A stretch of 23,913 nucleotides of DNA from positions 1 to 23,913 of the IMG/VR virus record IMGVR_UViG_3300049596_001326. One strand, written 5' to 3'. Below, one piece after another: positions 2,989 to 23,306 of this stretch. Position 1 is the first letter of the stretch, and each line of letters opens with the position of its first letter. The notes beneath the pieces were generated by a model. The model made no database searches and was not told the DNA's origin. It was given only the letters and a program-made list of their open reading frames with translations. This stretch comes from a virus. The position numbers and the translations under genes were made by a program.

Positions 2989-3775
2989 GGGCATATCGTT
3001 TGTAGTATTCTTCATTTATCTGTGATAGATTGGATTTAAGCCACTCAAAATACTTTTGGTAGGTAAGTGTTAGTTCCTCATTAGATATTGCCTCAAACGG
3101 AAGATTTGCCACATCTCCTGATGCTTCTTTGTGGTCTTCAAAGTTAGTTGGTGAGTTGATGTTACCCGATTGTTTATGTCCAGCTATTTCATGTGGGTCA
3201 CTCCAATTAAAGCAATAAGATGGAACGTAGTTTTTGTTGTGTTCATCTAATTGTTTTTCATCTCTTAATTTAGTGTACCAACTTAATCCTTCGTATCCTG
3301 TAATATCAGAACGGAAACCAATCTGTCTAATACGAGGCATCTTTACAATTACAGATGCTTCCATTGTATTCATAGTTAGTTCTACTCTATCACCTGTTGC
3401 AAAGAATGATTGTTCAGGCTTCCAAGCATCTGTACCTAATTCTTCAATTCCTTCCACAGCCTGTTGTAAATGCCAAGGGAGATAAATATCATCATCATCG
3501 GCAAGCATAAAGTAATCACCCGTAGCGTGGGTAACAGCATCTCTACAAATAAATCCTCTATTTGTGTAAGGTTCACCGGTTTGGTAATCAATTCCATTGT
3601 TTACAATTGTAACATTATCAGGTTTGTTCTCCATTACATATGGAAACTCTTCATCTGTATTAAAAATAATTAACTCTTTGTTTGGATATGTTTGAGCGTT
3701 AAATTGTGCCAATATCCTTTTTACGCAATAAAATCTTCTGTATGATGTACATACGAATGAAACCTTCTTTACCAT
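2969..3775 (-). CDS. Family 2-like (GT-A) glycosyltransferase
   Basis: This 268-aa protein starts VSFVCTSYRRFYCVKRIL (residues 5-22), the classic first strand and nucleotide-binding loop of GT2 enzymes. YPNKELIIFNTDE follows as the second strand. An aspartate cluster at 93-96 (LADDDDIYLPWH) is the expected metal and nucleotide-sugar DxD site. FICRDAVTHATGDYFML just before it is the usual N-R/D-x-G-x-x-A-G-like segment. It should transfer a sugar from an NDP-sugar. The acceptor is unknown. It is soluble, with no membrane segment. Its start overlaps the stop of the preceding glycosyltransferase gene by 7 nt, so the two are probably made together. The location within the virion gene operon suggests it acts on phage proteins or on surface glycans, but this is inference. 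Confidence 0.8.
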   Translation of the reverse strand: MVKKVSFVCTSYRRFYCVKRILAQFNAQTYPNKELIIFNTDEEFPYVMENKPDNVTIVNNGIDYQTGEPYTNRGFICRDAVTHATGDYFMLADDDDIYLPWHLQQAVEGIEELGTDAWKPEQSFFATGDRVELTMNTMEASVIVKMPRIRQIGFRSDITGYEGLSWYTKLRDEKQLDEHNKNYVPSYCFNWSDPHEIAGHKQSGNINSPTNFEDHKEASGDVANLPFEAISNEELTLTYQKYFEWLKSNLSQINEEYYKRYALHYILE

Positions 3776-4761
3776 ATATTTCCGTTTACAAAAGATTGGA
3801 TGTATCTATCATCACAATCTAATAAGTTGTGTTTAATTAAGTTTTGTGTTATTATTTCTCTATGGTCATTTCTACCAATACCTTCATCTACTATAATATC
3901 TCTTTCATCTAAATCAAAGTGTTTGATTTTATCAGTAGGTAAGTTTTTGTTTATTATCTTTTCTAATTTTCTTTCTATAAAATCATAGGTATAAACCCAT
4001 TCAGACCATCCTTGTTGTGATAGTAGAGCACCGAACTCATCTGGTCTAAACATAACTACTCTCGTACTCTTATGTCCGTATCCAGTTCGTTTCCAAGTAT
4101 ATACTGATTCTTCACCTAACTTATCATCAAATGGATTTCGTTTAAGATTACAAACACCTGTAAGTTTAATACCATATTTACATCCTAACATACTCGCAGC
4201 AGTTATACCTAAACTCATTAGTTCAGCTTCACCAACTTGCTTCTCTTGACGAGGGGATTGGTGTATAACTCTATAATTTTTTATATTAGGTAGAGTTTTA
4301 ATATGTTCTTCTATCTGTTCCCAATTTGGATTATAGTTTTTATCGTTGATTAGATTGTATGGGTCATCACCCTGATGCATCATTATTGCACCATTAGAAT
4401 CTAAATGTGGAGTAGAACCATCAGCAACTATAAGTGTGAATGGTTGATTTATAATTCTACTATTTACAGATAAAGCTAAATTGATTTGGTCTACTCTATT
4501 GCAAGATGTTAGAATAAGTGCATTATCAGTTTGATACTTTGGGAATGGGAAGTGGAAGTTAGCATTCTCATTTACTATTTCTTCTATAACTTTTCCATCA
4601 TACTCTATAACTAAACGTAGTTCTTTTGAGTGACCAGGATTTGGGTCTGTAAAGTAATCGTTTGTTGCACATAAATGTATCTCATTATTATGTATGTATC
4701 GGTTTTGTATTACCGATGCAACATCTAATTCACCCCATTTTGCTTCTATTATTTTTATCAT
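3769..4761 (-). CDS. Fusion of a DUF3395-like beta domain and a GT-A-like glycosyltransferase domain
   Basis: I start this gene at the ATG at 4761-4759, which forms an ATGA overlap with the upstream stop, rather than at the TTG at 4770. This gives 330 aa. Residues 1-70 (MIKIIEAKWGELDV, then NDYFTDPNPGHSKELRLVIEY) resemble DUF3395-type domains: A-x-Y/W-G, D-V, N-D-x-F-x-D-P-x-P-G, K-x-L-x-V-x-Y. From residue 80, ALILTSCNRVDQINLALSV and FTLIVADGST look like the opening strands of a GT-A fold. GCKYGIKLTGVCNL (about 185-200) resembles the K-x-T/S-G-R segment of some glycan-modifying glycosyltransferases. No clear DxD is visible in the expected position, so catalysis is uncertain. The gene is sandwiched between two other glycosyltransferases with overlapping ends. 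Confidence 0.62.
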   Translation of the reverse strand: MIKIIEAKWGELDVASVIQNRYIHNNEIHLCATNDYFTDPNPGHSKELRLVIEYDGKVIEEIVNENANFHFPFPKYQTDNALILTSCNRVDQINLALSVNSRIINQPFTLIVADGSTPHLDSNGAIMMHQGDDPYNLINDKNYNPNWEQIEEHIKTLPNIKNYRVIHQSPRQEKQVGEAELMSLGITAASMLGCKYGIKLTGVCNLKRNPFDDKLGEESVYTWKRTGYGHKSTRVVMFRPDEFGALLSQQGWSEWVYTYDFIERKLEKIINKNLPTDKIKHFDLDERDIIVDEGIGRNDHREIITQNLIKHNLLDCDDRYIQSFVNGNIW

Positions 4762-5705
4762 AATAAACAAGAGTGTTTAGCAACTTCGTTTATTTCATTC
4801 CAATAATGCCAACTTGCAGTTTCTTTATTTGGTTCAGGTGCTACAAAGTATGGTAGTTGTTCCATATATTCAGCTTTATAGAACCTACCTGAATTGGAAT
4901 CAGTTACACCAGCGTTGTGAAATATGTTAAAGTTCACCCAATCTTGCGGACCTGATGAAGCCCAACCGAATTGTAGTTCTTCTTCACAATTAGTTTTGAA
5001 ACCTCTTTTCCATCCTTCCCACAATACAGCCCACATATCAGCACACCATATTTGTAACTCGTGATGTGTTGGGTCTGCTTGTTTCTTTCTGTTATTTAGT
5101 TGAGTAATATCTACGAATAACTTCTCACATAATACCTCTACATCAGCCCAATATTGAGCATCTATATTTTTCATTAGGTATTGAGCACCAATTGAGTTTA
5201 GTTCATTATCCTTTATGAGTTGTTTATCTACGTTAGCTATCTCACACATTGCTTCTAACACATCATCTCCTTTGGACTGGATATAATCATGTCCTATGTA
5301 CCAACGAGTATCACTACCATACCATTCATCACCATTTACATATTTGTAAATCCAATCAATAGGTTTAGTAAATACAATATCACAGTCGTGGTATAGTATA
5401 GCCGAATCCTTTAGATAAGGGTGATTAGTAAAGTGTTGTTTAAGAATGTTTGGACGAATTGAAGAGATGTAACCTTTAGTTTCTCTTAAATCATCATAAA
5501 AGAAGAAGCGAGCAGCATATCTTTCTGCTAACTTTGTGTATTCTTCTGGTACAATACCATCAGGTTTAGAGCAGACAACATCTACATTATTTAGATTGAT
5601 ACCATTTTTACGAAAGTTATTTAGCATAACTTCCAATTGCCACGAGTAATATTTAATCGCAGGCTGTGCGCAGATGAAGCGCAGTTCTTTATCTATTAGT
5701 TGCAT
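4758..5705 (-). CDS. Glycosyltransferase-like protein with a DxD motif (plant HPAT-like pattern)
   Basis: In this 315-aa protein, residues 7-25 form a strand-helix opening (ELRFICAQPAIKYYSWQLEV). GYISSIRPNILKQHF (78-92) is followed by SAILYHDCDIVFTKPIDW (101-118), in which Asp107-Cys-Asp109 is the likely metal-binding DxD. WYGSDTRWYIGHDYI and NSIGAQYLMKNIDAQYW then match the order of conserved elements that I associate with the eukaryotic peptidyl hydroxyproline/serine glycosyltransferase-like group. That resemblance is by eye only. It heads a three-gene glycosyltransferase cluster, and its stop overlaps the next start by 4 nt (ATGA). No signal peptide or membrane segment is present. Donor and acceptor are unknown. 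The glycosyltransferase call is fairly safe; the exact family is not. Confidence 0.65.
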   Translation of the reverse strand: MQLIDKELRFICAQPAIKYYSWQLEVMLNNFRKNGINLNNVDVVCSKPDGIVPEEYTKLAERYAARFFFYDDLRETKGYISSIRPNILKQHFTNHPYLKDSAILYHDCDIVFTKPIDWIYKYVNGDEWYGSDTRWYIGHDYIQSKGDDVLEAMCEIANVDKQLIKDNELNSIGAQYLMKNIDAQYWADVEVLCEKLFVDITQLNNRKKQADPTHHELQIWCADMWAVLWEGWKRGFKTNCEEELQFGWASSGPQDWVNFNIFHNAGVTDSNSGRFYKAEYMEQLPYFVAPEPNKETASWHYWNEINEVAKHSCLL

Positions 5706-5709
5706 ATAA

Positions 5710-5749
5710 GTTGGGTTGTATATGTGTATATACTTATAACAACCTCAAC
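5710..5749 (-). repeat. Imperfect inverted repeat between genes
   Basis: On the minus strand GTTGAGGTTGT and ACAACCCAAC flank about 18 A/T-rich bases, giving a stem of about 10 bp with one mismatch. It lies just before the first glycosyltransferase gene and after the 57-aa gene. There is no U-run after it, so it is not an ordinary intrinsic terminator. It may be an RNA processing or stability hairpin. Confidence 0.45.
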
Positions 5750-5759
5750 TCATTTTGTA

Positions 5760-5933
5760 TTAAACAGAGCCAGTTACCTCTACAACAATGGTTGTTAAAG
5801 AAAGGTCTTGCTTATCTGTATCATCACCATATTGTACATATATCTCTAATGCTCTTGCTTCGTTTGTAAATGTTTGAGTGCATTCAAACTCACCATCTTG
5901 CATAAACGAAATTATATAATTATTTGCTTCCAT
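5760..5933 (-). CDS. Small hypothetical protein (57 aa) coupled to the LamG fibre-type gene
   Basis: ATG at 5933-5931 and TAA at 5762-5760 give 57 residues beginning MEANNYIISFMQDGEFECTQ and ending VVEVTGSV. The start shares one base with the stop of the preceding 408-aa gene (TAATG), a classic termination-reinitiation arrangement, which is the main support for the gene. Composition is that of a normal acidic soluble protein. I do not recognise the family. It could be a small chaperone or accessory of the fibre-like protein, by position only. Confidence 0.6.
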   Translation of the reverse strand: MEANNYIISFMQDGEFECTQTFTNEARALEIYVQYGDDTDKQDLSLTTIVVEVTGSV

Positions 5934-7159
5934 TATGAATTAGCTTTAACGTAAGTATTTAAGTAAGATTGTAAATCACTCATTTCTGTATCTGATAATC
6001 TTCTATCCCAAAAATATGCTGCGAATAACTTACCTTTCCACCATCTTCCACTATATGGTGTATTTAGAGTTGTTCCAAATCTAGTACCAAATGTCCAAGG
6101 TGCATTTCTTGCTACCAATCCACCATCATCACTATTTAATGTAGTACCTGTTGGTGTAAAGTTTGAAACATTTGCAGTTCCTCTCCAATAACTTTCCCCA
6201 TTTGTAGTAAATGCTAAACGAGTACCATACATTTTCAGAACATCATTTGTATAGTATGAACCAATTGTATGTCCGTTGTAAGAGTTATTACTTCTTAAAC
6301 TAGTACTATTAGTTCCACCACCAGAAGTTTTTTCAACCAATGAAATATATTTAGATTGTCCAGTATCAGCAAAGTAATCATTCCAAGCTGATAAACCAAC
6401 TTGAGTATTTCCACCTGTTGAATCTGATTCAGCTAAATAAACAACTGTAAATTCATTAGATGCAGTCATTGCAGAGTTCATTACAAACGAACCTGAATTG
6501 TATGTAGAAACAATACCAAAATCAACACGCGTAGATGTTCCGTTTAATTGAATACCATTCGTTGTATCAACTGCACTTGCACTCCAAATAGTTGCCGTAG
6601 ATGATGTTGCATATAACGAAGCGGTTGATAAGTTATACATAATACTACCACTACCTGGCCAACTTAAATTATTAGTTACCTCAAATCTACCAAGCAATCC
6701 ACTATTTAATCCTGATGGGAATGGATTAGCAGCCGTTGTTGTACTTGTAGATGTACTTGTTGTTGAAGTAGAGGTAGTTGTAGTAGTTGGTGCTTCTGTT
6801 GTTGTACTGGTAGAAGTAGATGTTGATGTACTAGTACTAGTAGTTGATGTACTCGTAGATGTACTCGTTGTAGATGTAGATGTAGAAGTTGAAGTTGATG
6901 TAGATGTTGTTGTTGTTATCTGTATGCTAATAGTTGCACTTGCATCACCACAAATACCATCAGCATTTACTAACTTTATAAAATTAGATGTATCAGGAAC
7001 ATATATAGTAGCTGAAGAACCAATACCAGGTAAATATAAATTACTACCACTTATAGCAATTGTAAAATTAACATTATCCGTAGAATAATAAGCATTGTAT
7101 AGTGGACCGGAACTTCCACTCCAGCTACTTATCGTTATTAGTTTTTCTATATTAGCCAT
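5933..7159 (-). CDS. Fibre-like protein: N-terminal beta domain, Thr/Ser linker, LamG-type C-terminal domain
   Basis: The protein has 408 aa. Residues 1-80 form a small beta-rich domain with a single Cys. Residues about 81-142 are almost pure Thr/Ser dipeptides interrupted by EAPTTTT, a mucin-like linker. Residues about 145-408 resemble a LamG or concanavalin A-like sandwich. They end in the same motif seen in the larger relatives (FAAYFWDRRLSDTEMSDLQSYL, compared with x-LLY-x-K-x-L-x-x-x-E-I-x-x-NY elsewhere), although more diverged. Such domains usually bind glycans, and the position after the tail genes suggests a receptor-binding or surface-exposed virion protein. No signal peptide is present. 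The start is 13 nt after the stop of the 1508-aa gene. Thr/Ser linkers are candidate O-glycosylation sites for the glycosyltransferases just downstream; this is inference. Confidence 0.7.
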   Translation of the reverse strand: MANIEKLITISSWSGSSGPLYNAYYSTDNVNFTIAISGSNLYLPGIGSSATIYVPDTSNFIKLVNADGICGDASATISIQITTTTSTSTSTSTSTSTTSTSTSTSTTSTSTSTSTSTSTTTEAPTTTTTSTSTTSTSTSTTTAANPFPSGLNSGLLGRFEVTNNLSWPGSGSIMYNLSTASLYATSSTATIWSASAVDTTNGIQLNGTSTRVDFGIVSTYNSGSFVMNSAMTASNEFTVVYLAESDSTGGNTQVGLSAWNDYFADTGQSKYISLVEKTSGGGTNSTSLRSNNSYNGHTIGSYYTNDVLKMYGTRLAFTTNGESYWRGTANVSNFTPTGTTLNSDDGGLVARNAPWTFGTRFGTTLNTPYSGRWWKGKLFAAYFWDRRLSDTEMSDLQSYLNTYVKANS

Positions 7160-7172
7160 ATCTTATTTTTTA

Positions 7173-10100
7173 TTATGCAGGTGTTCCATTACAATTTATA
7201 GGGAAATCATAAGTACCAATTTGGTCTGATGGTGTTGAACTTACTCCGGCGCAGTTTGAGCCAGTCACTTGCCAAAAGTGTACTAATCCACCATTATCAA
7301 CAACATTATTCCAAGTTACAGATGCAGTAAATACTGGTTGTAATGAACTACTATAAATCCAAGTTTGATTTGTCAATAAGTTTGTAGAACCAGGTGCTAC
7401 ATAACTATATGTTTGTGGTAATGATGCTCCATTTCTTTGTGGGAATATATAGTAATTATGTGTTGAACCAGTTACTACTGCTTGGCAACCATCAATACTC
7501 CAATTATTACTTCCACTTGTGAAATCAAACTCCATCGCATTACATAATGTAGTTGTAGAAGTAGTAGAAACTGCAGTAGTAGATACTCCTAAATAATATT
7601 GGTTTTGATATATACCACAATTCTCACCATATAATCCAACTTGATTTTGATTGGATACTCCACCTTGCCATGTCACAGATATAGGGAATGTTTTAGGTTG
7701 TAATGATGAACTAACAATCCAAGTAATTGGTGTAAATGGTGCTAATGAACCAGTTACAGTTATTATATATGTTTGTGGTAAAGTTGCTGAACCAAGATTT
7801 GCTGCAGCTCCAGCCGCGTAAAGTATATAGTTTTGTGTACTACCTACTGGTACTGATTGAGGACCTGAAGCACTAATCTCATTTATAGTTAATGGGTCAG
7901 CACAAGCTAATGTAGTAGTAGAAGTAGATGTTGGTACAGGACAAGCAGTTTTATCAGTAACAATACCTGTATTTACCTCATATCTAAATCCACCATCTGA
8001 ATAATATCCAGTTACTAATTCATCATTAAGGTTTTGCGATGCGTATAAAACATCACCTGTTACTATACTTCCACCACTTTGATATTTGTATGCAGTAATA
8101 TCATCACCAGCTCTATCACAAGTTCCACCAAAGACTGGGAATAAATTATATCCATACCATTCAGCTGCCGTTGTAGTTGAAGTAGATGTAGGTGCAATAG
8201 TTGTTGTACTCGTAGTTGATGTACTAGTCGTAGATGTAGAAGTACTAGTCGTTGTACTAAACGGAGGTGCAGTAGTTGTACTAGTCGTAGATGTACTCGT
8301 ACTCGTACTCGTAGAAGTAGAAGTAGTTGATGTACTAGTCGGTGCAGCTGTCGTTGTTGTTGATGTACTCGTAGAAGTAGTAGTACTAAACGGAGGTGCA
8401 GCAGTTGTAGTAGATGTAGATGTACTAGTACTCGTTGAAGTAGAAGTAGTAGAAGTTGATGTACTCGTTGGTGGAAGAGTAGTAGTAGATGTAGTACTTG
8501 TACTTGTAGTAGAAGTACTGGTACTGGTAGATGTAGTAGTAGTTATTAAACAACTTGGACCATAACTTACAGTAATATCACCATCTAATATCTCAACAGT
8601 TAAGTACTTAACACAGAATGTAATTACATCGTATGATTCTAATACCCAAATCTCCTCTTCTCCCAAACAATTTTGGAATACAATTGTTCCTTCTAAATTA
8701 CTATTATTAGTAAATGTAGTATCGTAACAAGCAAACGGAGCCAACGTAGTTGTTGATGTAGGTGGAGCCGTAGTTGTACTCGTTGGTGCAGCTGTTGTTG
8801 TAGATGTACTCGTTGAAGTACTTGTACTTGTACTCGTAGATGTTGAAGTAGAAGTAGAAGTTGTGCTTCCAACTGGTGGATTACAAGCTCTATCTCTTAA
8901 TGCGTTATAATTCTGTGCTATCTCACTTGCTGAAAGTATTTTACCATATAATAAAATATCAGTTACAGTACCCTTAAAGAAGGTAGCATCTGTGTTACTA
9001 TTAAAACCAAACTTCAATGCGGTTGCTACTGCATTAAATGTATTTACACCACCTGCACTAAAATTAGTTACAAATGTTCCATTTACATATAACTGCATTA
9101 AATCAGTAGTTGAGTTTGCAGTCATTGTAATCAATTGATTATTAGCAGGTACATTAGTAAATGTAGCTCTTTTATCTGTTGGAGCATCATCTCTAAATAC
9201 AAATCTACTAAAAGCTGCATCATAGATACTATCCCAACCAGTCGTATAATCATTCTTACAGAATAAATCTCTATTTACACCATCATTATACAATGAACCA
9301 AAGAATTGCATTGTCCATTGTGTTGTAGGTTGTGAGTTCAATGGTTCTGGATATTGTAAATAATTGTTAGTACCATTGAATGCTATACCCAATGAACCAG
9401 AAGCACTCATAGGAGTACCAATAACCGAAGCAGAGTTTCCGTTTCCTGAACTATCTACCCAAGTAGGTGAGTTTACTACATAAGTAGCGCAAGTGTTCCA
9501 CAGAACCAAACTATCACCAACTACCGGTGGTCTTGTGGTAGTAGAAGTTGTACTTGTACTCGTAGATGTACTTGTACTAGTCGGTGCAGCTGTCGTTGTA
9601 CTCGTTGAAGTAGATGTTGAACTAGTTGATGTACTCGTTGAAGTAGATGTACTACTCGTAGATGTAGAAGTAGAAGTAGATGTACTACTGGTAGATGTAC
9701 TTGTAGATGTAGATGTACTTGTACTAGTCGAAGTAGAAGAAGTAGATGTACTCGTTGAAGTAGATGTAGAAGTAGAAGTGCTTGTTGGAGCAGCTGTTGT
9801 TGTACTTGTCGTTGTAGAAGTAGATGTTGTACTTGTACTCGTAGAAGTAGATGTTGTACTTGTACTCGTAGAAGTAGATGTAGAAGTACTTGTACTTGTA
9901 CTAGTCGTAGATGTAGATGTAGATGTACTAGTAGTAGATGTTGTAAATCCAGAAGGACAACTTTGCGCTAATAATACATTATAATTAGAAGTTATTTCAG
10001 TTCCATTTAGAGCTTTGTTATATAATAATACTGAACTTAATGTTCCATCATAATAATTTCCATCATCTGCACTTTTACCAAAACGGAATAACATAGATGA

Positions 10101-11699
10101 TTGGAAATAAAATACAGTTCCACCAGCACCTGCTCCAAAATTACCCATATAAGTTCCATTTACATAGAAACCTATTTGTTGTGTTGATTGTGCTACTATA
10201 AATGTATATAATTGTTTAGTAGCACCTGGTACTGCATAGTTAAATGTTTTAGCACCTACACCAACGGCACGATATACAAATCTTTGATTTATACTATCAT
10301 ACGATATTTTCCTACTTGTATCAGAATAGTTAGTACCATAATCCCAACTGAATAGGGTTTTGTCAGTAGTAGGATTTATAGCTCCAAACATTTGTAATGT
10401 ATATACACCTGTTCCAATACCAGTGATAGTTGGATACCAATTTAATTGATTATTTGTTGCATTAAAACCTAATCCTAATGAACCAGAAGGTAAAATTGTA
10501 CTACCACTTACATACGCAGTATTTGAATTACCACTACTATCTACCCAAGTTGAAGAACCAGGTACAAACGTAGGACACTGATTAAATATAACCAATTGGT
10601 CAGTTACAATTTGAGATTGAGTTGTAGTACTAGTAGTTGAAGCAGCAGTTGTGGTGCTGGTTGGAGAAGCAGTTGTTGTGGTAGTACTACTTGGAGCAGA
10701 AGTTGTAGTAGATGTTGTACTTGTACTTGTAGTTGTTGATGTTATAGTACATGCACCTTGTAATGTTACAGTAACACTTCCAGAATATATTTCAGGTGTA
10801 CCAAGTGCACATATTATTGCTGTTGCAAAATCTTGTACGATTACAAATTTAGCAAATCCATTACAATCGATATAATTTACTAAAGCACTACCTCCACCAG
10901 TAGACTGAACTAACCATTGATTACATGCTTGCGTTGTAGTAGTCGTTGTTGGTGCAGCAGTAGTTGTACTAGTCGTAGTCGATGTAGGAGCAGCAGTAGT
11001 AGTTGTTGTTGTAGTTGGTGCAGCCGTTGTTGTACTAGTCGTAGTAGTAGTTTGACCTGGTCCTAACGTAGTAGTAGAAGTAGTTGATGTACTAGTCGTA
11101 GATGTTGTAGTAGTTGTTGGGCCAGGTGTAACCGCAGTAAAGTTGAATGAACAATCTACTGGTGGGATAAATGGTATAGTTAAAGTATCATCTAATATTG
11201 GTCCTAATAACTGTAAATTACACTCACCATTGGAAGTGTTGTAATCGTTGATTGCACGAAGATAATAATAATTACCTCTCCACTCTACAACATCATTTAA
11301 GTTCATTGTAAAATAATCTGCTAATGGTATAATACCAGAACAGGTTACTAAACGAGTATGTGGGTCATATAATAAACTTACATAAGTTTCCCAATACTCA
11401 CTATAAAGAGATTGAGATGGAAACGTACCATATGGTGTAAACTCATTATTAAACAACAAAGAAAGGGATGAACCAGTTACTTGTTGTTCAGAATAATAAT
11501 CTAATTGAGGAAATGTATCTACTGATTGAGTTACAATTGTAGCAGATGATGTTGTTGCCGAACCTGAATAACCTTCTATGTACCAAGGTTCACACTCACG
11601 CTGTCCATTATAAAAATATATATGTGGCAAAACACGAGCAGGAGCAGATGTTACACTACTGATGTATTTTGGTATAAATATTTTAGTATTAGCAGCCAT
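7173..11699 (-). CDS. Giant modular tail or fibre protein with mucin-like Thr/Ser linkers, two LamG domains and duplicated small domains
   Basis: This is the largest gene (1508 aa). The N-terminal 188 residues form a structured domain, with DVVEWRGNYYYLRAINDYN late in it, probably attaching to the tail. Thr/Ser linkers with AAPT breaks lie at about 190-257, 318-358, 584-721, 945-985 and 1050-1180. Two Cys-containing domains of about 60 aa (258-317 and 990-1049) share C...DC/NC-x-G...I-x-x/F-C...G-x-I/V-TV...G/S-C. LamG-type domains lie at about 360-582 and 722-943; both contain WVDSSGN and end in LLY-x-K-x-L...E-I...NYN. After 1180 there is a unique Cys domain, then a tandem pair (about 1264-1375 and 1383-1500) sharing LPQTY...W-I-x-SSSLQP...SVTW. 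The likely role is a host-contacting virion appendage. Start 4 nt after the preceding stop. Confidence 0.75.
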   Translation of the reverse strand: MAANTKIFIPKYISSVTSAPARVLPHIYFYNGQRECEPWYIEGYSGSATTSSATIVTQSVDTFPQLDYYSEQQVTGSSLSLLFNNEFTPYGTFPSQSLYSEYWETYVSLLYDPHTRLVTCSGIIPLADYFTMNLNDVVEWRGNYYYLRAINDYNTSNGECNLQLLGPILDDTLTIPFIPPVDCSFNFTAVTPGPTTTTTSTTSTSTTSTTTLGPGQTTTTTSTTTAAPTTTTTTTAAPTSTTTSTTTAAPTTTTTTQACNQWLVQSTGGGSALVNYIDCNGFAKFVIVQDFATAIICALGTPEIYSGSVTVTLQGACTITSTTTSTSTTSTTTSAPSSTTTTTASPTSTTTAASTTSTTTQSQIVTDQLVIFNQCPTFVPGSSTWVDSSGNSNTAYVSGSTILPSGSLGLGFNATNNQLNWYPTITGIGTGVYTLQMFGAINPTTDKTLFSWDYGTNYSDTSRKISYDSINQRFVYRAVGVGAKTFNYAVPGATKQLYTFIVAQSTQQIGFYVNGTYMGNFGAGAGGTVFYFQSSMLFRFGKSADDGNYYDGTLSSVLLYNKALNGTEITSNYNVLLAQSCPSGFTTSTTSTSTSTSTTSTSTSTSTSTSTSTSTTSTSTSTSTTSTSTTTSTTTAAPTSTSTSTSTSTSTSTSSTSTSTSTSTSTSTSTSSTSTSTSTSTSSTSTSTSTSTSSTSTSTSTTTAAPTSTSTSTSTSTTSTTTRPPVVGDSLVLWNTCATYVVNSPTWVDSSGNGNSASVIGTPMSASGSLGIAFNGTNNYLQYPEPLNSQPTTQWTMQFFGSLYNDGVNRDLFCKNDYTTGWDSIYDAAFSRFVFRDDAPTDKRATFTNVPANNQLITMTANSTTDLMQLYVNGTFVTNFSAGGVNTFNAVATALKFGFNSNTDATFFKGTVTDILLYGKILSASEIAQNYNALRDRACNPPVGSTTSTSTSTSTSTSTSTSTSTSTTTAAPTSTTTAPPTSTTTLAPFACYDTTFTNNSNLEGTIVFQNCLGEEEIWVLESYDVITFCVKYLTVEILDGDITVSYGPSCLITTTTSTSTSTSTTSTSTTSTTTLPPTSTSTSTTSTSTSTSTSTSTTTAAPPFSTTTSTSTSTTTTAAPTSTSTTSTSTSTSTSTSTTSTTTAPPFSTTTSTSTSTTSTSTTSTTTIAPTSTSTTTAAEWYGYNLFPVFGGTCDRAGDDITAYKYQSGGSIVTGDVLYASQNLNDELVTGYYSDGGFRYEVNTGIVTDKTACPVPTSTSTTTLACADPLTINEISASGPQSVPVGSTQNYILYAAGAAANLGSATLPQTYIITVTGSLAPFTPITWIVSSSLQPKTFPISVTWQGGVSNQNQVGLYGENCGIYQNQYYLGVSTTAVSTTSTTTLCNAMEFDFTSGSNNWSIDGCQAVVTGSTHNYYIFPQRNGASLPQTYSYVAPGSTNLLTNQTWIYSSSLQPVFTASVTWNNVVDNGGLVHFWQVTGSNCAGVSSTPSDQIGTYDFPINCNGTPA
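9814..9881 (-). repeat. 27-bp tandem repeat, about 2.5 copies, within a Thr/Ser linker
   Basis: A 27-bp unit is repeated exactly at 9814-9840 and 9841-9867, followed by a 14-bp partial copy. The unit is a multiple of three, so gain or loss of copies would change linker length without breaking the frame. Confidence 0.8.
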
Positions 11700-15442: not shown

Positions 15443-15443
15443 A

Positions 15444-15959: not shown

Positions 15960-15965
15960 AGGTTA

Positions 15966-16493: not shown

Positions 16494-16504
16494 AATATTT
16501 TATG

Positions 16505-17776
16505 TTATTCGTATCTTTCGTATTCCTTTTCAAAGAATGCTTGTGATGGTCTTACTACTTCTTGCTCTATAACTTTGTTCTCATCATTAGAATCAGTTAC
16601 ATCTGGATTATCTAATTGGTCATTAGTATCTTCTTGTACCTCATCTATTGTTTGTCCTGTTTCTTCAGCAGTTTGTGCTAATATAGCTAATGGTGTTAAT
16701 TGGTCTATATACAATTGTGAATCTAAATAACCACCTTCGTTCAATGCTGCATCTAATGTTTGTAACAATAGATTTTGGAAACCATTGATTGTCATCGTCT
16801 GTAAGATAGAGTAAGCAGTTTTCATTTCTTCACTCTGTGATGAGAAACCATTGTTAGCAGTACGGATACCAAACAACAAAGGCGATGTTACTCTATGTGC
16901 TACAAGTATTCTATCTTGTGCATACTCTGCAACATACTGATACTTTTCGTGTAGGTTATCTGTTTGTATTACATCTACTGTTGGTTTCAATAATGGGTCA
17001 TCACTAAATGATAACATAAATCTACCAGCGTTTCTACTACCTGTAAACTTATCTTCAATCATATTTTCAATTACCTGTCTTTCTTCCGGAGCAGGAATAC
17101 CATTATTAAAATTAACCATAACAACTGGCATAAACCCATTATGGATATTGTTTAAGTGTAGGTTAGATAAATCAGCTTCTACATAAGAGAATTGCAATGA
17201 TGATACCCAATCAGGTAAAGAGTAATAGTAATGACCAGGTGAGTAATTCTTTATGTAAAGTATTTCTACATCTTCGTTTGAAGTACCAAACGCTGGGATT
17301 TTCTTTTTATGTTTCTGTGCTCTCTGGTCTTTCCAATCAGAACAATAGAAATAGTTTTCAATTCTGGGATTAGAGTATATCTTTTCAGCTCGTAGATTTT
17401 GGACTGGGACATGGTAAAATTTAATTACTTTAGTGTGTTCTTTATTCCAATAGACCTGATAAGCACCATTACCATATAGTTTCAAATCAAATGCTACTTT
17501 TCTTGTTTCTTCCTGTGGGATAAGTTTAGGTAATGCTTGAGTAAAGGTTTGGTTATTTGTATAAAGACCTTTACCATATATTAAATCAGCTATACCTTCA
17601 ACGCAAGCTGAAGTAGTAGTAGATGTATTAAAAGCAGTAGTAATTAGTTCAAAGAAATCATCTTGTCCTAATATACCAACAGGTACCCACTCATGTCTAG
17701 TCTTTATATCTTCAAAGACTGCAGTTACATCTTGTTGCTGTAATTGTACTACTGAAAAGTTTTGATTTTTATTCAT
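16505..17776 (-). CDS. Phage portal protein
   Basis: This 423-aa protein fits the PBSX/HK97-type portal family. The N-terminal segment AFNTSTTTSACVEGIADLIYGKGL (about 48-71) is the typical opening helix and wing. LKLYGNGAYQVYWN (about 97-110) is the usual L-x-x-x-G-N-x-Y strand. PDWVSSLQFSYVEADLSNLHLNNIHNG (about 185-215) and IENMIEDKFTGSRNAGRFML follow, then VAHRVTSPLLFGI and LLLQTLDAAL. The last 70 residues are acidic and disordered, a common portal tail. It forms the ring through which DNA enters the head. It lies near the start of a new transcript, after the promoter at 18233-18264, and 2 nt after the 122-aa gene. Unusually, the capsid and scaffold genes precede it. Confidence 0.85.
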   Translation of the reverse strand: MNKNQNFSVVQLQQQDVTAVFEDIKTRHEWVPVGILGQDDFFELITTAFNTSTTTSACVEGIADLIYGKGLYTNNQTFTQALPKLIPQEETRKVAFDLKLYGNGAYQVYWNKEHTKVIKFYHVPVQNLRAEKIYSNPRIENYFYCSDWKDQRAQKHKKKIPAFGTSNEDVEILYIKNYSPGHYYYSLPDWVSSLQFSYVEADLSNLHLNNIHNGFMPVVMVNFNNGIPAPEERQVIENMIEDKFTGSRNAGRFMLSFSDDPLLKPTVDVIQTDNLHEKYQYVAEYAQDRILVAHRVTSPLLFGIRTANNGFSSQSEEMKTAYSILQTMTINGFQNLLLQTLDAALNEGGYLDSQLYIDQLTPLAILAQTAEETGQTIDEVQEDTNDQLDNPDVTDSNDENKVIEQEVVRPSQAFFEKEYERYE

Positions 17777-17778
17777 TG

Positions 17779-18147
17779 TTATTGAATTATGATAAACTCA
17801 TTACCAGAGAGTCTAGATTTATATTGAGTATTTTGATTTACATAATCTGTTTTATTAACAGACTGTGAAGCATATACTTGCATAGTACCATTGTATATTG
17901 TAGAACCTGTATTTTTAAGTTCTAATCTATACTCATAAGCTACACTTGTTGTAGGTAATTGTAAAGAGAATGATAAAATACTTTCATAATTGTCATAAGA
18001 TATGAAAGCTGAACCTGATATACTAAAAGATTGTGTACTTAAAGTGTACATATCTTCAATGTTTAATACTAAATTAGAACTTGAAGACACAAATGGTTGT
18101 GTATGAATACTGAAATTATTTGAACCTGTACCGAAATAAGAAAGCAT
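17779..18147 (-). CDS. Small hypothetical structural-type protein (122 aa)
   Basis: This 122-aa protein is rich in Ser, Thr, Tyr and Asn, with strand-like repeats (NFSIHTQPFVSSSSNLVLNI, FSISGSAFISYDNYESILSF) and no membrane segment or Cys. I recall such short beta proteins next to portal genes in uncultured phages, where they have no named function. It is the first gene after the promoter, with a leader of about 80 nt, and is followed 2 nt later by the portal. It may be a head or neck protein. No function assigned. Confidence 0.55.
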   Translation of the reverse strand: MLSYFGTGSNNFSIHTQPFVSSSSNLVLNIEDMYTLSTQSFSISGSAFISYDNYESILSFSLQLPTTSVAYEYRLELKNTGSTIYNGTMQVYASQSVNKTDYVNQNTQYKSRLSGNEFIIIQ

Positions 18148-18232
18148 TATCTGTTATTTATCTATACTTTATAACAAATTAACTAATCATTATCAGTAAT
18201 ATATAATATTAGCAGTAAAACTTAACTGAACT

Positions 18233-18264
18233 CAAAGTTACGAAAAAAAACTGATATAATCAAA
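18233..18264 (-). promoter_or_regulatory. Bacteroidota-type promoter for the portal and tail transcript
   Basis: On the minus strand TTTG (18264-18261) is followed by 20 nt and TAACTTTG (18240-18233). This exactly fits the Bacteroidota sigma consensus TTTG, about 19-21 nt, TAnnTTTG. It begins right after the terminator U-run and stands about 80 nt before the ATG of the 122-aa gene, so it should start a new transcript. Confidence 0.7.
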
Positions 18265-18291
18265 TAAAAAAGGGGAAACTTTCGCTCCCCC
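18265..18291 (-). terminator. Intrinsic terminator after the capsid gene group
   Basis: Minus-strand hairpin of 8 bp (GGGG/CCCC core plus G-U, A-U, G-U and C-G pairs) closed by a C(GAAA)G tetraloop at 18272-18291, followed directly by six U (18271-18266). It lies about 30 nt after the stop of the 178-aa gene. Confidence 0.85.
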
Positions 18292-18319
18292 AATTTTCCC
18301 TACTCTACCCAACTATTTT

Positions 18320-18856
18320 TTAGTTATATACTATTGTCGGTTGTGTTGATAATCCAGCGAATGGATTAGATGTTGTGCTTCCAGATAAGAAAGCTGCCGG
18401 AAGTTGTTCCATACCTGTTAAGGTTACAGAGTATCCGTATAAGTCACCCAAAGCTCCACCAGTCTGAATTGTACCAGCAGTTACATCAGCACCAAGCTTT
18501 TCGCCTACTAATAATGCATCTCCTGCGTTTGTCCAAACTACTACTTGAGGGCGGCCGTAAGCCATCAACTTTAATTGTGTTGTCATTTCGTTCGTCAGTT
18601 TCTTTAAGTTAAGAGTTGCTTCTTGGTTAAAGAATGTTGTTCCGTTTTCGCGAGATGAGTTTACAGTTTCAGTATAGGCTGATGTTCCTTTCAATTGGTA
18701 ATAATAGACTGTTGAACCTGAAGGAAGTGCGGTAACTTCACCAGCACCATTTTTAGTGAATGAGCCTGTTGTATAGTTAATAAAATATACACCTTGCAAA
18801 CCACCAATACTTTCCTTACAAACTTCTTGTCTACCTTGTGTTAGATTACAAGCCAT
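18320..18856 (-). CDS. Abundant-type structural protein after capsid (tail tube or decoration candidate)
   Basis: This 178-aa protein begins MACNLTQGRQEVCKESIGGL, with two Cys near the N-terminus. ETVNSSRENGTTFFNQEATL and KLTNEMTTQLKLMAYGRPQV (about 62-100) look like the conserved core, followed by GDLYGYSVTLTGMEQLPAAF. I recall similar proteins in Bacteroidota phages but without a firm function. The size, single-domain beta fold and dedicated terminator suggest high expression, so a tail tube or capsid decoration protein is plausible. The gene is separated from the capsid gene by a strong hairpin. Confidence 0.5.
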   Translation of the reverse strand: MACNLTQGRQEVCKESIGGLQGVYFINYTTGSFTKNGAGEVTALPSGSTVYYYQLKGTSAYTETVNSSRENGTTFFNQEATLNLKKLTNEMTTQLKLMAYGRPQVVVWTNAGDALLVGEKLGADVTAGTIQTGGALGDLYGYSVTLTGMEQLPAAFLSGSTTSNPFAGLSTQPTIVYN

Positions 18857-18901
18857 AATGTTATTGTATTTTAATCGTTATTGTTTTTTTGATTTATGAT
18901 A

Positions 18902-18928
18902 GGAGTGGAGGAACGCTGTCCCCCACCC
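18902..18928 (-). other. Strong intergenic hairpin without a U-run
   Basis: On the minus strand a 10-bp stem (GGGTGGGGGA paired with TCCTCCACTC, two G-U pairs) with a 6-nt loop occupies most of the gap between the capsid gene and the 178-aa gene. The bases after it are A-rich, not U-rich, so it is not a standard terminator. It could be a partial attenuator or an mRNA end-protecting element that sets the ratio of the two products. Confidence 0.6.
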
Positions 18929-18963
18929 GAATCAAAGGATAGATTTACCTACCCCATTGTGTT

Positions 18964-19938
18964 TTAAGCGTATGCGCCGTAGTAAACAATATCAGATAAG
19001 ATACCTGCAGTTGTAGCAGCTGTATATCTCATTATGATACGGAAGTTCTGCGAGCCATCCAAGTCAGCCATGTCTAATACTTTAACCTGGTTGTAATCAG
19101 ATAATAAACCTGTTCCAAAGTGTAAGTTAGATTTCTGTGCTGCTACGATAGTTGAAGAAGCCATACCAGGACACAATACGATTTCAACACCATTGAAGTT
19201 CATTGGTTTCTCACCAACGTTCAATTGATTGTTGTATCCGTTTGCACCTTGTGCTCCACCACCTAATGCTTGTTGGTAAGCCTTTGCTACGTTTGTTGGA
19301 ACGTATAACAATAAATCTTCTTTACCATATACAGTATCAGGAATAGTATCAACTGTTGAGTTTAAGATTGATAATACGTTAGCTGAAGTGATTGAACCAG
19401 AGATGATTGCTGATGAGCCACCGCTTGTTCTTACTGGCAATACACCAGTTCCTGCTGCTACTGAAGCAGATAATGCTGGACCAAATCCACCAAATTGTCC
19501 GTTAGTTGCAGTGTTACCTTGCCAAATAGAGATTTCAGTTGCTTGTGCTACTTGTCCACCTACATAAGAGATAAGGTAATCGTTGAATGAAGCTGGGATA
19601 GTATCGAATGCACTATAACCCAATTGTAGTGCTTCCCAGCTATCTACGAATTGTTGCTTACATAATTCAAGGTTAACTTGAAGTTCTTTCGGCTCAAGGA
19701 TTCTTTCGCTTAATGCTACTGAACCAGATGTTACGAAATCACAAGATGCGTTAGTGATGATGTTAGTTACATCAATCTTTTGGATAATCTCTCTGTACTT
19801 CACGTTAGGGTGAATAGTTACATACTTGTTATCCAATGTTTTAGCCGATAATAACGCTGCTGCGATATATTGACCTGCGAACTCACCTGCGTATGTTGAG
19901 GTAATAGTTGGCTGTACAAAGTTTTGTTGTTTTCTCAT
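18964..19938 (-). CDS. Major capsid protein
   Basis: The protein has 324 aa. Support comes from the overall layout and the flanking genes (scaffold-like before, structural after). After a short N-arm there is a long helix-like segment (LLSAKTLDNKYVTIHPNVKY). Next come the helix LNLELCKQQFVDSWEALQLG, the loop SFNDYLISYVGGQVAQATEISIWQG (about 118-142) and a Gly/Ser/Ala-rich stretch. VLSILNSTVDTIPDTVYGKEDLLLYVPTNV (about 197-226) and FNGVEIVLCPGMASSTIVAAQKSNLHFGTGL follow. FRIIMRYTAATTAGI at the end resembles the P-domain strand of HK97-fold capsids. The leader has no Shine-Dalgarno sequence but has the A/T-rich start context typical of highly expressed Bacteroidota genes. Confidence 0.75.
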   Translation of the reverse strand: MRKQQNFVQPTITSTYAGEFAGQYIAAALLSAKTLDNKYVTIHPNVKYREIIQKIDVTNIITNASCDFVTSGSVALSERILEPKELQVNLELCKQQFVDSWEALQLGYSAFDTIPASFNDYLISYVGGQVAQATEISIWQGNTATNGQFGGFGPALSASVAAGTGVLPVRTSGGSSAIISGSITSANVLSILNSTVDTIPDTVYGKEDLLLYVPTNVAKAYQQALGGGAQGANGYNNQLNVGEKPMNFNGVEIVLCPGMASSTIVAAQKSNLHFGTGLLSDYNQVKVLDMADLDGSQNFRIIMRYTAATTAGILSDIVYYGAYA

Positions 19939-19961
19939 TTTTAATTAAATGTTGTTGTTGT

Positions 19962-20600
19962 TTATTTATATAATTTAGATAAGAATGTGTTTTGCGGGTC
20001 TGCAATTTTATTCTTACTTCCATATGCTTTTACTTTAGAGAACTTCTTCATGTCCTCTTCGATTGGAGCACCATCTAATTTAGGTAAATCTTCTTCAGGC
20101 ATTTCTTCAGCCATCTTATAAGATTCTAATTCTAATTCTAATGCTTTAATCTTTGCTTTCAATTCACTAATTACAGGTGAATCTGATTCTGGTGATGGAA
20201 CTTCGTTAGCAGGATTCTCATCAGTTGTGTTAGGTAATGCCTTTGCTGGAACCATATCCTCTGCAAATGCTACTGGCATCTCTTCGTTTACACCTGTATC
20301 TTCTAAATCTGCTGGTTGTGCTTCTTCTACATTTTCTCTTTCTGTGATTTTACCACCTTCAGTTTCAATGCGGATAACAACTTTGTTTCCTTCTGAATCT
20401 CTCAATTCAATTTCATGCTCACCATCTGGTGCTGGAGTTAGATTACCATCTTCTCCCACTACACTTACATCTTCTCCCAAATCAAATGTTGGTGATTGTA
20501 AGATGTTACCTTGTGCATCTCTTGCGTCTGTAAGGTTCATATCCTTATTATCATAAGACAATAAGGTCATAATCTTATTTAATACTTCTTTTGCATTCAT
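19962..20600 (-). CDS. Scaffold-like acidic coiled-coil protein
   Basis: The protein has 212 aa and is very rich in Glu, Asp and Pro, with a low-complexity acidic middle (about 85-135). ISELKAKIKALELELESYK (about 144-162) is a regular heptad coiled coil. The C-terminal basic stretch KKFSKVKAYGSKNKIADPQN resembles scaffold capsid-binding tails. It is located 23 nt before the major capsid gene, where scaffolds normally sit. The protease at 1-445 could cleave it. No protease motif was seen in this protein, so a separate protease is needed. The coiled coil and position support the call; no specific family was recognised. Confidence 0.6.
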   Translation of the reverse strand: MNAKEVLNKIMTLLSYDNKDMNLTDARDAQGNILQSPTFDLGEDVSVVGEDGNLTPAPDGEHEIELRDSEGNKVVIRIETEGGKITERENVEEAQPADLEDTGVNEEMPVAFAEDMVPAKALPNTTDENPANEVPSPESDSPVISELKAKIKALELELESYKMAEEMPEEDLPKLDGAPIEEDMKKFSKVKAYGSKNKIADPQNTFLSKLYK

Positions 20601-20647
20601 ATTTCAATATAGTTTTAATTATTTAACAATGTATTTGTTGGTTGTAG

Positions 20648-21196
20648 TTATTTTTCTTTAATTATTTGGATTATTATATCATCGTATCTACCCTTATTAG
20701 GACGTAAATCATATACAGTTGTTGAGCCAGATGGTGGGTTCATAGCACGGAGAACTAATAAATCATTATCTGATTGTATATCTTCTATAATCATTTTACC
20801 ACCTACTGCTAATTTAGGCCACCATTTAGTTATACAATCTATTTGTGATTGTAGTGTGTGTGGACCATCATCTATAATAATATCAAAGTATTCATCCTTA
20901 AACTCTGCAATCGTTTCATCTGCGTAAGCATCTTTGAATTGAAAATTAATATTAGGTTGAGCAATAAACTCATCTACTATATGGTCTTCAACATCAAATC
21001 CGTATATATTACTATCTGGTCCAAAGTGTTGAGACCATAGTTGTAGGCTTCCACCTTTATATACACCAATCTCTAATAAGTTAATTGGTTTTGTATTATC
21101 AGCAAATGCTTCATTGTAGTATCCATTGATGTAATCATGTATTGCTCCCTTATCTGTATGAGGGTTTAATTCATTGTAGGTTTCTAATAGGGTCAT
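20648..21196 (-). CDS. Class I SAM-dependent methyltransferase
   Basis: The protein has 182 aa. TDKGAIHDYINGYYNEAF near the N-terminus is typical of Methyltransf_24 or sugar O-methyltransferase-like proteins. Motif I is LLEIGVYKGGSLQLW (about 40-54). Motif II is IYGFDVED. Motif IV is YFDIIIDDGPHTLQSQI, with a double Asp. Motif V or VI is GGKMIIEDI. It should transfer a methyl group from S-adenosylmethionine to a small molecule or a sugar hydroxyl. It lies between the mucin-like LamG gene and the scaffold gene, not beside the glycosyltransferases. O-methylation of a virion glycan is a reasonable guess but is not shown. Confidence 0.75.
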   Translation of the reverse strand: MTLLETYNELNPHTDKGAIHDYINGYYNEAFADNTKPINLLEIGVYKGGSLQLWSQHFGPDSNIYGFDVEDHIVDEFIAQPNINFQFKDAYADETIAEFKDEYFDIIIDDGPHTLQSQIDCITKWWPKLAVGGKMIIEDIQSDNDLLVLRAMNPPSGSTTVYDLRPNKGRYDDIIIQIIKEK

Positions 21197-21236
21197 AGGG
21201 CTGTTAATGCGTTATAGTTGGTTGTTGTTTTTTTTG

Positions 21237-23306
21237 TTAAATGCTACCTGATACAAATAAATAATTATAGTTTTGTGCTATTTCAGCAGTAGATAGTATT
21301 CTGTTATATACTAATATATTACTTATTGTTCCATTGTAAAATCCATATGCAGGTGTTGTTCCAGTACTCTTATCAAGTCCAAATGTGAATGGTTCAGCTG
21401 AAGCAGTATTAAATCCAACAAATTGACCTGATGTAAAATTAGTTACTGTTCCTTCATCGTTTAAGTAAAATCCACCATTAGTTCCAGTACCTTGAGTAAT
21501 GGTAAATGTATATAGTGATTGAGTAGCAGGTGGTACTGCAGTTGGTGTTACAACTTCTTCATTAAAATTATTATAGTAGTAAAATCTTCTAGAACTATTA
21601 CTTAAACCATTCCAAGCATTGTACCAACCATTAGAAAAAGTAGAAGAAGATACTTCTGTTTTACCAAATAAAGTTTGTCCATTACCATCTGCATTTGGTG
21701 AACCAAAGAATTGTAATGTAAATGAACTAGATGGTGTGGCTACTAATGAAGCAGGATATGTTAAATAGTTTTCATTACTAGCAGATGGTACAAAGTTCCA
21801 TCCTAATGAACCAGATAATGCTAATGAAGAACCAGATATTAAAGCGTGGTTTCCATTGCCTGAATTATCATACCAAACACTACCAGTAACCCCATTAAAC
21901 TTATTCCATATAGTTAAACCATTTGTAACTAATCCAGGACCAGCAGTTGTGGTGGTTGTTGTACCTATTGATGGTGATAAAGCTGTGTAATTATATATAA
22001 CTTCAGCTTCTGTCAATATTCTATTATATAAAATTATATCCTTAAATGTTCCTTTGAAGTAATTTCCATCACTTTGTGGATTATATCCAAATGTAAATGG
22101 TATAGCACTTCCACTATTGAATGGTTCAATCAATGAACTTTTACTTACTATAAGTGTATCATCTATATATAGTTCGCATGTACCATCTATATTATATGTT
22201 GTTGTAATTAGTTTAACAACTGCTCCATCTATTGGACCATCTAATGATATATCAGAACCAGCTACTGGTCTATATACAATTTCAGGATATGGTGTAGCTA
22301 CTGTATCCCATCCATCTTCAAATGAGTTTTTACAGAAGTAATCTCTATTTTCAGAATCAAAGTTTATTGTACCATAGTATTGTAAAGTAAACGAACCAGT
22401 TGGTGTTGCGTTTACAGGCTCTGGATAAGTAAAGAAATTATTAGTTCCATTAAACTCTAATCCTAATGAAGCAGATGCTACTAATGTACTACCACTTACT
22501 ATTGCAGTATTATTATTACCACTCCTGTCTGCAACAGTCCCACTTCCACTATTGTAATCTTCGTAATTATTCCATATAATCAATCCACTTTCAACAATTG
22601 GTAATGGCGCAACAGTAGTTGTACTTGTTGAAGTAGATGTAGAAGTTGGTGCAGCAGTAGTTGTACTTGTTGAAGTAGATGTAGAAGTTGGTGCAGCAGT
22701 AGTTGTACTTGTTGAAGTACTAGTACTAGTTGATGTAGTAGATGTACTCGTACTTGTTGAAGTAGAAGTAGATGTTGTACTCGTTGATGTTGAAGTAGAA
22801 GTAGAAGTTGTAGTGCTAGTTGGAGCAGCAGTGGTTGTACTTGTACTGGTAGAAGTAGAAGTTGTGGTAGTTGGTGCAAGTGTACTTGTACTTGTAGAAG
22901 TAGAAGTAGATGTTGTGGTGCTGGTTGGAGCAGCTGTTGTTGTACTAGTACTTGTAGAAGTAGAAGTTGATGTAGATGTACTACTTGTACTTGTTGATGT
23001 ACTCGTTGAAGTAGATGTTGAAGTAGATGTAGTAGAAGTACTTGTAGTAGTTGGTCCAGCCGTTGTAGTTGTGGTACTAGTGGGTTGTATTGTGGTTGTA
23101 GTAGTACTTGGTGGTGCGGTAGTTGTACCCTGAATATTACCAATACCTTGCGCAATCAAATCCCCATTACAACACTCACGTGAGTATGTATCTGTTTTAG
23201 TACAAAGACAAGCTCTACGATTGTTTTTGGGTGAAGATAAACCTTGCGTAGGTCCTAGATAGATACCACTATTTATTCTTCTATTGATTTTTCTTGCATA
23301 CAACAT
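21237..23306 (-). CDS. Mucin-like virion protein: Cys-rich head, long Thr/Ser linker, two LamG domains
   Basis: The protein has 689 aa. The N-terminal 60 residues form a basic Cys-rich motif: KNNRRACLCTKTDTYSRECC, then GDLIAQGIGNIQG. Residues about 64-231 are Thr/Ser dipeptides with AAPTS or TTAGP breaks. LamG-type domains lie at about 238-440 and 460-689. Each has WNN/WNK, D-x-SGN-x-N near its start and (I/V)-L-(Y)-N-R-I-L-x-x-A-E-(V/I)-x-x-NY at its end. The Cys-rich head may anchor the chain to the virion (inference), and the linker holds the lectin-like domains outward. There is no signal peptide. It sits between the chaperone-like gene and the methyltransferase gene, away from the other two LamG genes but sharing their modules. 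Confidence 0.72.
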   Translation of the reverse strand: MLYARKINRRINSGIYLGPTQGLSSPKNNRRACLCTKTDTYSRECCNGDLIAQGIGNIQGTTTAPPSTTTTTIQPTSTTTTTAGPTTTSTSTTSTSTSTSTSTSTSTSSTSTSTSTSTSTSTTTAAPTSTTTSTSTSTSTSTLAPTTTTSTSTSTSTTTAAPTSTTTSTSTSTSTSTTSTSTSTSTSTSTTSTSTSTSTSTTTAAPTSTSTSTSTTTAAPTSTSTSTSTTTVAPLPIVESGLIIWNNYEDYNSGSGTVADRSGNNNTAIVSGSTLVASASLGLEFNGTNNFFTYPEPVNATPTGSFTLQYYGTINFDSENRDYFCKNSFEDGWDTVATPYPEIVYRPVAGSDISLDGPIDGAVVKLITTTYNIDGTCELYIDDTLIVSKSSLIEPFNSGSAIPFTFGYNPQSDGNYFKGTFKDIILYNRILTEAEVIYNYTALSPSIGTTTTTTAGPGLVTNGLTIWNKFNGVTGSVWYDNSGNGNHALISGSSLALSGSLGWNFVPSASNENYLTYPASLVATPSSSFTLQFFGSPNADGNGQTLFGKTEVSSSTFSNGWYNAWNGLSNSSRRFYYYNNFNEEVVTPTAVPPATQSLYTFTITQGTGTNGGFYLNDEGTVTNFTSGQFVGFNTASAEPFTFGLDKSTGTTPAYGFYNGTISNILVYNRILSTAEIAQNYNYLFVSGSI
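22613..22719 (-). repeat. 42-bp tandem repeat, about 2.5 copies, within the Thr/Ser linker
   Basis: Exact 42-bp units lie at 22613-22654 and 22655-22696, with a 23-bp partial third copy to 22719. Each unit encodes 14 residues containing TTTAAPTSTSTS. It keeps the frame, so slippage would only change linker length. Confidence 0.85.

Follow-up and report, generated by a model that had tools for sequence, protein, structure and literature searches.

The window analysed here, a 23.9-kb virus record (IMG/VR IMGVR_UViG_3300049596_001326, taken at its full length), belongs to an uncultured phage and is occupied almost entirely by its virion module, encoded on the minus strand. The capsid and portal proteins are distant kin of their counterparts in P12024S/L, phages of Nonlabens (Bacteroidota). 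The module encodes three proteins with long Thr/Ser-rich linkers (linker proteins A, B and C), three putative glycosyltransferases (GT_A, GT_B and GT_C) and a methyltransferase, which were investigated as a candidate system for glycosylation of the phage's own virion proteins (Table 1). In the order of transcription, linker protein C is followed by the methyltransferase, the scaffold, capsid, portal and connector genes and a 714-amino acid (aa) virion-module protein, and then by linker B, linker A, GT_C, GT_B, GT_A and a tape-measure-like gene. The seven open reading frames named in a first-pass annotation, made by a model from the letters of the window, were recovered, all on the minus strand, and the overlaps of 4 and 7 nucleotides (nt) between the enzyme genes were correct. 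The range assigned to the system, 3769-23306, left out the third enzyme gene (2969-3775). The enzyme genes, described as directly following the linkers, do lie downstream of them, but 227 nt separate the stop of linker A (5933) from the start of GT_C (5705). The start codon of GT_B is an ATG; the program-made list of open reading frames begins this gene 9 nt earlier at a TTG. No promoter or terminator signals above those of shuffled sequences were detected in the cassette.

Table 1. Genes and domains of the proposed glycosylation system in the window
Feature	Position	Strand	Basis or content
GT_C, proposed initiating O-glycosyltransferase, 315 aa	4758..5705	-	phrog_4417; DxD at D107/D109
GT_B, probable second glycosyltransferase, 330 aa, lectin-like N-terminal stretch	3769..4761	-	SUEL motif by profile
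GT_A, family-2 glycosyltransferase, 268 aa	2969..3775	-	PF00535
Methyltransferase, possible glycan-capping enzyme, 182 aa	20648..21196	-	Methyltransf_24 / TylF-like
Linker protein A	5933..7159	-	Thr/Ser tract 67 aa (residues 80-146)
Linker protein B	7173..11699	-	N-terminal domain (residues 1-189), six Thr/Ser tracts (426 aa total), two LamG domains
LamG domains of linker protein B	8880-9521 and 9957-10610		Laminin_G_3
Linker protein C	21237..23306	-	Thr/Ser tract 170 aa (residues 66-235), two LamG domains
LamG domains of linker protein C	21240-21941 and 21942-22601		Laminin_G_3

As had been noticed in the first-pass annotation, the linkers are long and have AAPT-like interruptions; Ser and Thr make up 58 of 67, 355 of 426 and 144 of 170 aa in A, B and C, respectively (83-87%). 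All three proteins thus carry the long, Pro-broken Thr/Ser-rich tracts that are a trait of mucins. An origin of the linkers from a DNA microsatellite was rejected, as the codons are mixed (ACA, ACT, ACG and ACC for Thr; TCT, AGT and TCA for Ser), and this mixed usage indicates that the tracts are maintained by selection at the protein level. Among 1088 other virion or cassette proteins of relatives, just eight have a run of at least eight Ser/Thr residues. LamG domains had been ascribed to all three linker proteins. They were confirmed in B and C, where the four domains scored 32-34 bits against a Pfam cut-off of 27.6 for Laminin_G_3, but the C-terminal domain of A was unmatched by this profile. 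The N-terminal domain of B is conserved and could be aligned with 49 relatives. Its structural model was poor (predicted local distance difference test (pLDDT) score, 60.6) and a fold search with this model returned nothing, so that synteny is the basis for placing the linker proteins in the virion. In the clade of the window, A, B and C are presumably virion proteins; the location is firmer in the isolates described below, where capsid and tail proteins themselves carry the tails.

GT_C is a full-length member of phrog_4417 (E = 2.9e-62; residues 9-308 on positions 2-291 of the 293-position profile), a family labelled "unknown function" in the PHROG library. Pfam, PDB-sequence and profile searches yielded no family, leaving the fold match alone as informative, and no match by sequence to the known mucin transferase families was obtained. 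For a model built from 47 related sequences (pLDDT 96.7), the best PDB fold matches were all GT-A enzymes, namely WbbM, UGGT/GT24, glycogenin/GT8 and the blood-group transferases (E 4e-7 to 4e-5), with template modelling (TM) scores of about 0.45-0.5 and about 8-12% identity. The modelled structure is a Rossmann-like GT-A glycosyltransferase fold, and sugar transfer is the predicted activity. Both aspartates of the DxD motif (D107 and D109) are invariant in the 47 relatives and in the 14 sequences compared across phyla. From Bacteroidota to Firmicutes phages the same is true of H263, which is part of an HNAGV-type motif. By analogy with GT8 and GT24, the enzyme may use retaining (alpha) chemistry.

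The description of the cassette as three glycosyltransferases also held for GT_A, which matched PF00535 (Glycos_transf_2, GT2) over part of the profile (positions 73-110 of 168; E = 3.1e-7, 30.9 bits against a cut-off of 23.3), whereas GT_B is assigned by context and by eye. GT_B had no convincing match in Pfam and recovered just two relatives when used as a query. Its N-terminal stretch contains the ND..GDP..G..K.L motif of rhamnose-binding (SUEL) lectins. The whole-sequence match (E = 1.2e-10) came from three repeats, and because the single stretches scored weakly (E 0.1-0.6), the SUEL likeness is a lead and not proof. Two GT_B subtypes of about 330 and 288 aa (for example, 3769-4761 of the window and L130:11447-12319) were observed that are only 20-25% identical; the lectin-like motif appears to be common to both, and the remainder differs. 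The methyltransferase matched Methyltransf_24 (46.8 bits, cut-off 26.3) and the methyltransferase family phrog_21658 (E = 1.3e-19), in agreement with its annotation, in which the sugar-type substrate is the presumptive part. The further suggestion that the phage methylates its virion proteins is weaker: the gene lies outside the glycosyltransferase cassette in the window, although glycosyltransferases and methyltransferases are the commonest cassette partners in relatives. Methylation of a glycan is conceivable on this basis.

The association between linkers and GT_C was determined in 52 non-redundant contigs of the window's own clade that span the interval from the gene for the 714-aa protein, used as the anchor, to the tape gene. 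Linker and GT_C were both present in 30 contigs and both absent from 21; one had the linker only and none had GT_C only (Fisher p = 1e-13). The sole linker-only relative (L217) is an incomplete contig. By the criterion of the first-pass annotation, glycosyltransferases equally frequent in relatives without linkers would have spoken against the proposal; GT_C was found in 30 of 31 linker-bearing and 0 of 21 linker-less relatives. With a first, narrower tract definition (a run of at least eight Ser/Thr), the counts for both, GT_C only, linker only and neither were 27/3/1/21 (p = 2e-10). In the three misses the tracts are interrupted every 6-7 residues, and the definition was therefore broadened once these contigs had been inspected. 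To allow for shared ancestry among the phages, the association was then assessed on a maximum-likelihood tree. Both traits differ in six independent pairs on well-supported branches, in the same direction in 6/6 (sign test p = 0.03). In 11 of the 21 relatives without GT_C, the B protein consists of the N-terminal domain alone (172-190 aa) with the tape gene directly after it, as if tract, LamG domains and enzymes had been gained or lost together. Two more (L004 and L174) have a long B protein with neither tract nor GT_C, and the remaining eight form a divergent lineage with another gene arrangement.

Such a pattern could also arise by hitch-hiking, if tract and glycosyltransferase genes were one mobile block exchanged by recombination without functional coupling. 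The genes are adjacent in the clade of the window, and the trio does move between unrelated phages: the window's exact trio was found at 79/81/83% identity (GT_B 81%) in a phage in which no other homologue of a window protein was detectable in the stretch searched, and there, too, it immediately follows a Thr-rich protein. A second phage group, with genomes of about 60 kb, in which GT_C is often far from the Thr-rich genes, bears on this point. Ten contigs were read over all or almost all of their length; nine encode both GT_C and Thr-rich proteins, and the tenth is a 24-kb fragment. In seven of the nine (G024, G026-G031) the genes are about 8-45 kb apart. Among 13 further relatives, eight encode phrog_4417; seven of the eight show the strict poly-Thr pattern and the other, G095, has tracts on direct reading. 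G093 (67.7 kb, terminase 87% identical) has neither GT_C nor GT_B. The long tract protein is still represented there by a homologue of 1197 aa (55% identity over 1176 residues), from which the Thr tracts are absent. Tracts without GT_C were seen in G097-G099, of which two are below full length and one is palindromic. Because distant genes stay concordant and both traits are missing from G093, simple hitch-hiking is disfavoured, and mere physical hitch-hiking was rejected. That GT_C stays while its neighbours change also argues against a mobile block, as does the form of the tract in Firmicutes phages, a short tail within the major capsid protein (MCP) or major tail protein (MTP) and not a separate gene. 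We therefore consider uncoupled exchange highly improbable. In the palindromic contig (IMGVR_UViG_3300032323_002596, G097, 59.9 kb; loci L445/L446), the poly-Thr matches and the terminase copies are mirrored, as expected of a palindromic assembly.

By tblastn, phrog_4417 was found in 74 of 50,697 phage records, mostly of phages of lactobacilli, enterococci, staphylococci and lactococci. All 13 representatives examined (13/13), from Enterococcus, Lactococcus, Lactobacillus, Staphylococcus, Chryseobacterium and other hosts, have a Thr-rich C-terminal tail or tract on the MCP, the MTP or an adjacent protein. The tail protein of phiFL1A ends in ..TTTTTSTTTTTTSSTTTTTTTQASSK and its capsid-like gp45 also bears a Thr-rich tail or tract. 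Thr-rich tails or tracts are likewise present in Planchet, VPE25, bIL285, 1706, PLE3, Semele, SA2, TPWB06, R3.3 and the Chryseobacterium phage MA9V-3, with variant tails in LP65 (TETQTQTQ) and 521B (TTVKPTTVAP). Thr tails were seen in 0/10 relatives with homologous tail proteins and no phrog_4417 in the stretch (Fisher 9e-7, kinship uncorrected). The cleanest contrast was provided by Coetzeevirus, where R3.3 encodes the enzyme and bears a tail on each of the two proteins, whereas Silenus, phiJL-1 and ATCC8014 have neither. The Arcanobacterium phage TPWB06 (L270) closely resembles the Staphylococcus phage SA2 (L269) in gene order, tail-protein C-terminus and Thr-rich proteins, and its host label may be wrong.

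The gene content of the cassette was compared across relatives. GT_C is the constant member, and the genes behind it are exchangeable. The 41 distinct accessory proteins include eight that match GT2, six a GT32-like DXD family, two GT25, two the capsule type (Caps_synth) and one an NDP-sugar epimerase, along with matches to the methyltransferase families Methyltransf_24 (in four), Methyltransf_25 (in three) and FkbM (in one). A tract-bearing gene lay at most 1.5 kb upstream at 49 of 74 informative GT_C loci, compared with 106 of 637 comparable genes at the same loci. A cassette protein of about 207 aa (L113:10951-11574, with homologues in L114, L115, L125, L126 and L129) resembles 2-oxoglutarate/Fe oxygenases by eye, without a Pfam match, and is a possible further glycan- or residue-modifying partner. 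Outside phages, on a chromosome of Chitinophaga filiformis DSM 527 (L286:5119-12187), a GT_C-like domain is in frame with a GT7C domain, and the neighbouring genes encode GT11, LanC-like and C39-ABC-transporter proteins. From its gene content this locus looks like a biosynthesis cluster for a glycosylated peptide, and because the cellular GT_C homologue adjoins LanC-like and C39-ABC-transporter genes, a peptide acceptor is hinted at.

The resemblance of cassette partners to polysaccharide enzymes (GT2, GT25, Caps_synth, epimerase) would also suit glycosyltransferases that modify a host surface polysaccharide or receptor, for superinfection exclusion or serotype conversion, and that move together with LamG adhesins as a cassette for host range, the tracts being mere flexible spacers. 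Phage glycosyltransferases that alter host surfaces are established, and poly-Thr proteins without phrog_4417 exist. However, a host-surface target leaves unexplained the bare Thr tails on Firmicutes capsid and tail proteins exactly where phrog_4417 occurs, as well as the joint loss in relatives that retain the rest of the protein, and we regard it as unlikely. Phage glycosyltransferases that act on hypermodified bases are known as well (Pyle et al. 2024, as cited in PMC12619734). Base hypermodification of the phage DNA, with the tracts unrelated, is nevertheless a reading to which we give almost no weight, since the glycosyltransferase genes are inside the virion module, adjoin the genes with tracts and co-vary with them, although no search aimed at base-modification genes was made and the contigs are partial.

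Glycosylation of the linkers is well supported, because the co-occurrence holds in the clade, for unlinked genes and in other bacterial phyla; this comparative evidence favours the proposal of the first-pass annotation that the phage glycosylates its own virion proteins. We think it quite probable that the genes are a phage-encoded O-glycosylation cassette for this purpose, with a mechanism that is likely, though unproven. The proposal is supported by the tracts, the GT-A fold and DxD motif of GT_C, the repeated joint gain or loss, the pairing in unrelated phages and the exchangeable partners. In the proposed pathway, whose acceptor, sugar, linkage and order of steps are inferred, GT_C would use a nucleotide-sugar of the host to attach the first sugar to the hydroxyl groups of Thr and Ser in the disordered tracts of A, B and C. 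GT_B, with its lectin-like N-terminal stretch, and GT_A would lengthen the glycan, which the methyltransferase may then cap. The particle would thereby gain stiff, mucin-like glycosylated spacers between its anchoring domains and the lectin-type LamG domains. Protease resistance, a longer reach of the adhesins, and shielding or altered adhesion are conceivable benefits.

Several points weigh against this interpretation. The evidence is comparative only and the glycan itself is inferred; the viral contigs are for the most part fragments; the definition of a tract was broadened once with the data in view, which changed the counts from 27/3/1/21 to 30/0/1/21; and the isolate controls were hand-picked from tail-protein relatives. 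In addition, when the scan was started from the tracts, phrog_4417 was present in no more than 12 of the 43 contigs that have poly-Thr and are 30 kb or longer, so that many Thr tracts exist in its absence or are served by other enzymes. In the genomes compared, the presence of phrog_4417 is predictive of Thr tracts, but the reverse does not hold. A control scan for poly-Gly gave just 11 loci, not enough to derive a base rate. PF11397 was the top-ranking Pfam family in the neighbourhood of poly-Thr genes, and PF11397 GlcNAc-transferases scored above the curated cut-off in seven poly-Thr contigs that lack phrog_4417 (G045, G046, G047, G051, G054, G066 and G084). PF11397 is thus a possible second, unrelated initiating enzyme in poly-Thr phages. 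The non-overlap of the two families among poly-Thr contigs was not significant (p = 0.08), and a PF11397 search in 34 other contigs gave no match, but the positive control gave none either. It appears rather more probable than otherwise that phrog_4417 represents a widespread mucin-type system, in Bacteroidota and Firmicutes phages at least, in which a conserved transferase initiates glycans on the Thr-rich tails and linkers of virion proteins, with swappable, serotype-like downstream enzymes that determine the glycan and with PF11397 substituting in other poly-Thr phages.

To our knowledge, glycosylated virions have been demonstrated for only a handful of phages. The proposed system shares with eukaryotic mucin-type O-glycosylation the Thr/Ser/Pro-rich disordered acceptor tracts and a GT-A polypeptide transferase, and the PF11397 genes of other poly-Thr phages recall the GlcNAc transferases of that type. 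It differs in that GT_C is unmatched to the mucin transferase families by sequence, in the lack of a secretory pathway and in that the glycans are predicted. Glycogenin and UGGT have proteins or glycoproteins as their substrates. GT_C resembles these GT8/GT24-like enzymes in its predicted fold and DxD motif, whereas the low identity and TM scores denote fold kinship and not family membership. In the mycobacteriophages Che8, Corndog and Myrna, phage-encoded glycosyltransferases act on the phages' own capsid and tail proteins, reportedly at the C-termini (Freeman et al. 2023, as described in PMC12619734 and PMC12363180), as proposed here; the difference is the acceptor, which in the window would be a Thr/Ser tract. 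Che8 gp108, gp109 and gp110 matched none of the cassette profiles, Thr-rich tails are absent from the capsid and tail proteins of this phage, and homology with the Che8 enzymes was rejected as undetectable. The cassette would work like the mycobacteriophage and mucin-type systems and is, by the tests run, a member of neither. A literature search found no description of Thr-tail glycosylation or of phrog_4417, with subscription and preprint literature not excluded.

With these results, a protein family of unknown function gains a testable proposed function. The combination of phrog_4417 with Thr-rich virion tracts forms a sequence rule that predicts phages with glycosylated particles, including well-studied phages of Lactococcus, Lactobacillus, Enterococcus and Staphylococcus. 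If correct, this matters for phage surface adhesion, for particle stability and for the reading of virion proteomes, because standard mass-spectrometry searches would miss the modified tail peptides.

Two further observations were made outside the cassette. The only clear plus-strand gene of the window (517-966) lies between the tape-like gene and an S78-type protease. Its product resembles, by eye, a homing endonuclease of the GIY-YIG type whose tail is reminiscent of a zinc finger; Pfam gave no match at E 0.1. Contig IMGVR_UViG_3300043395_001957 (62.6 kb; loci L022 and L036) contains two capsid modules in the same orientation about 34 kb apart and represents either two joined phages or a chimera.

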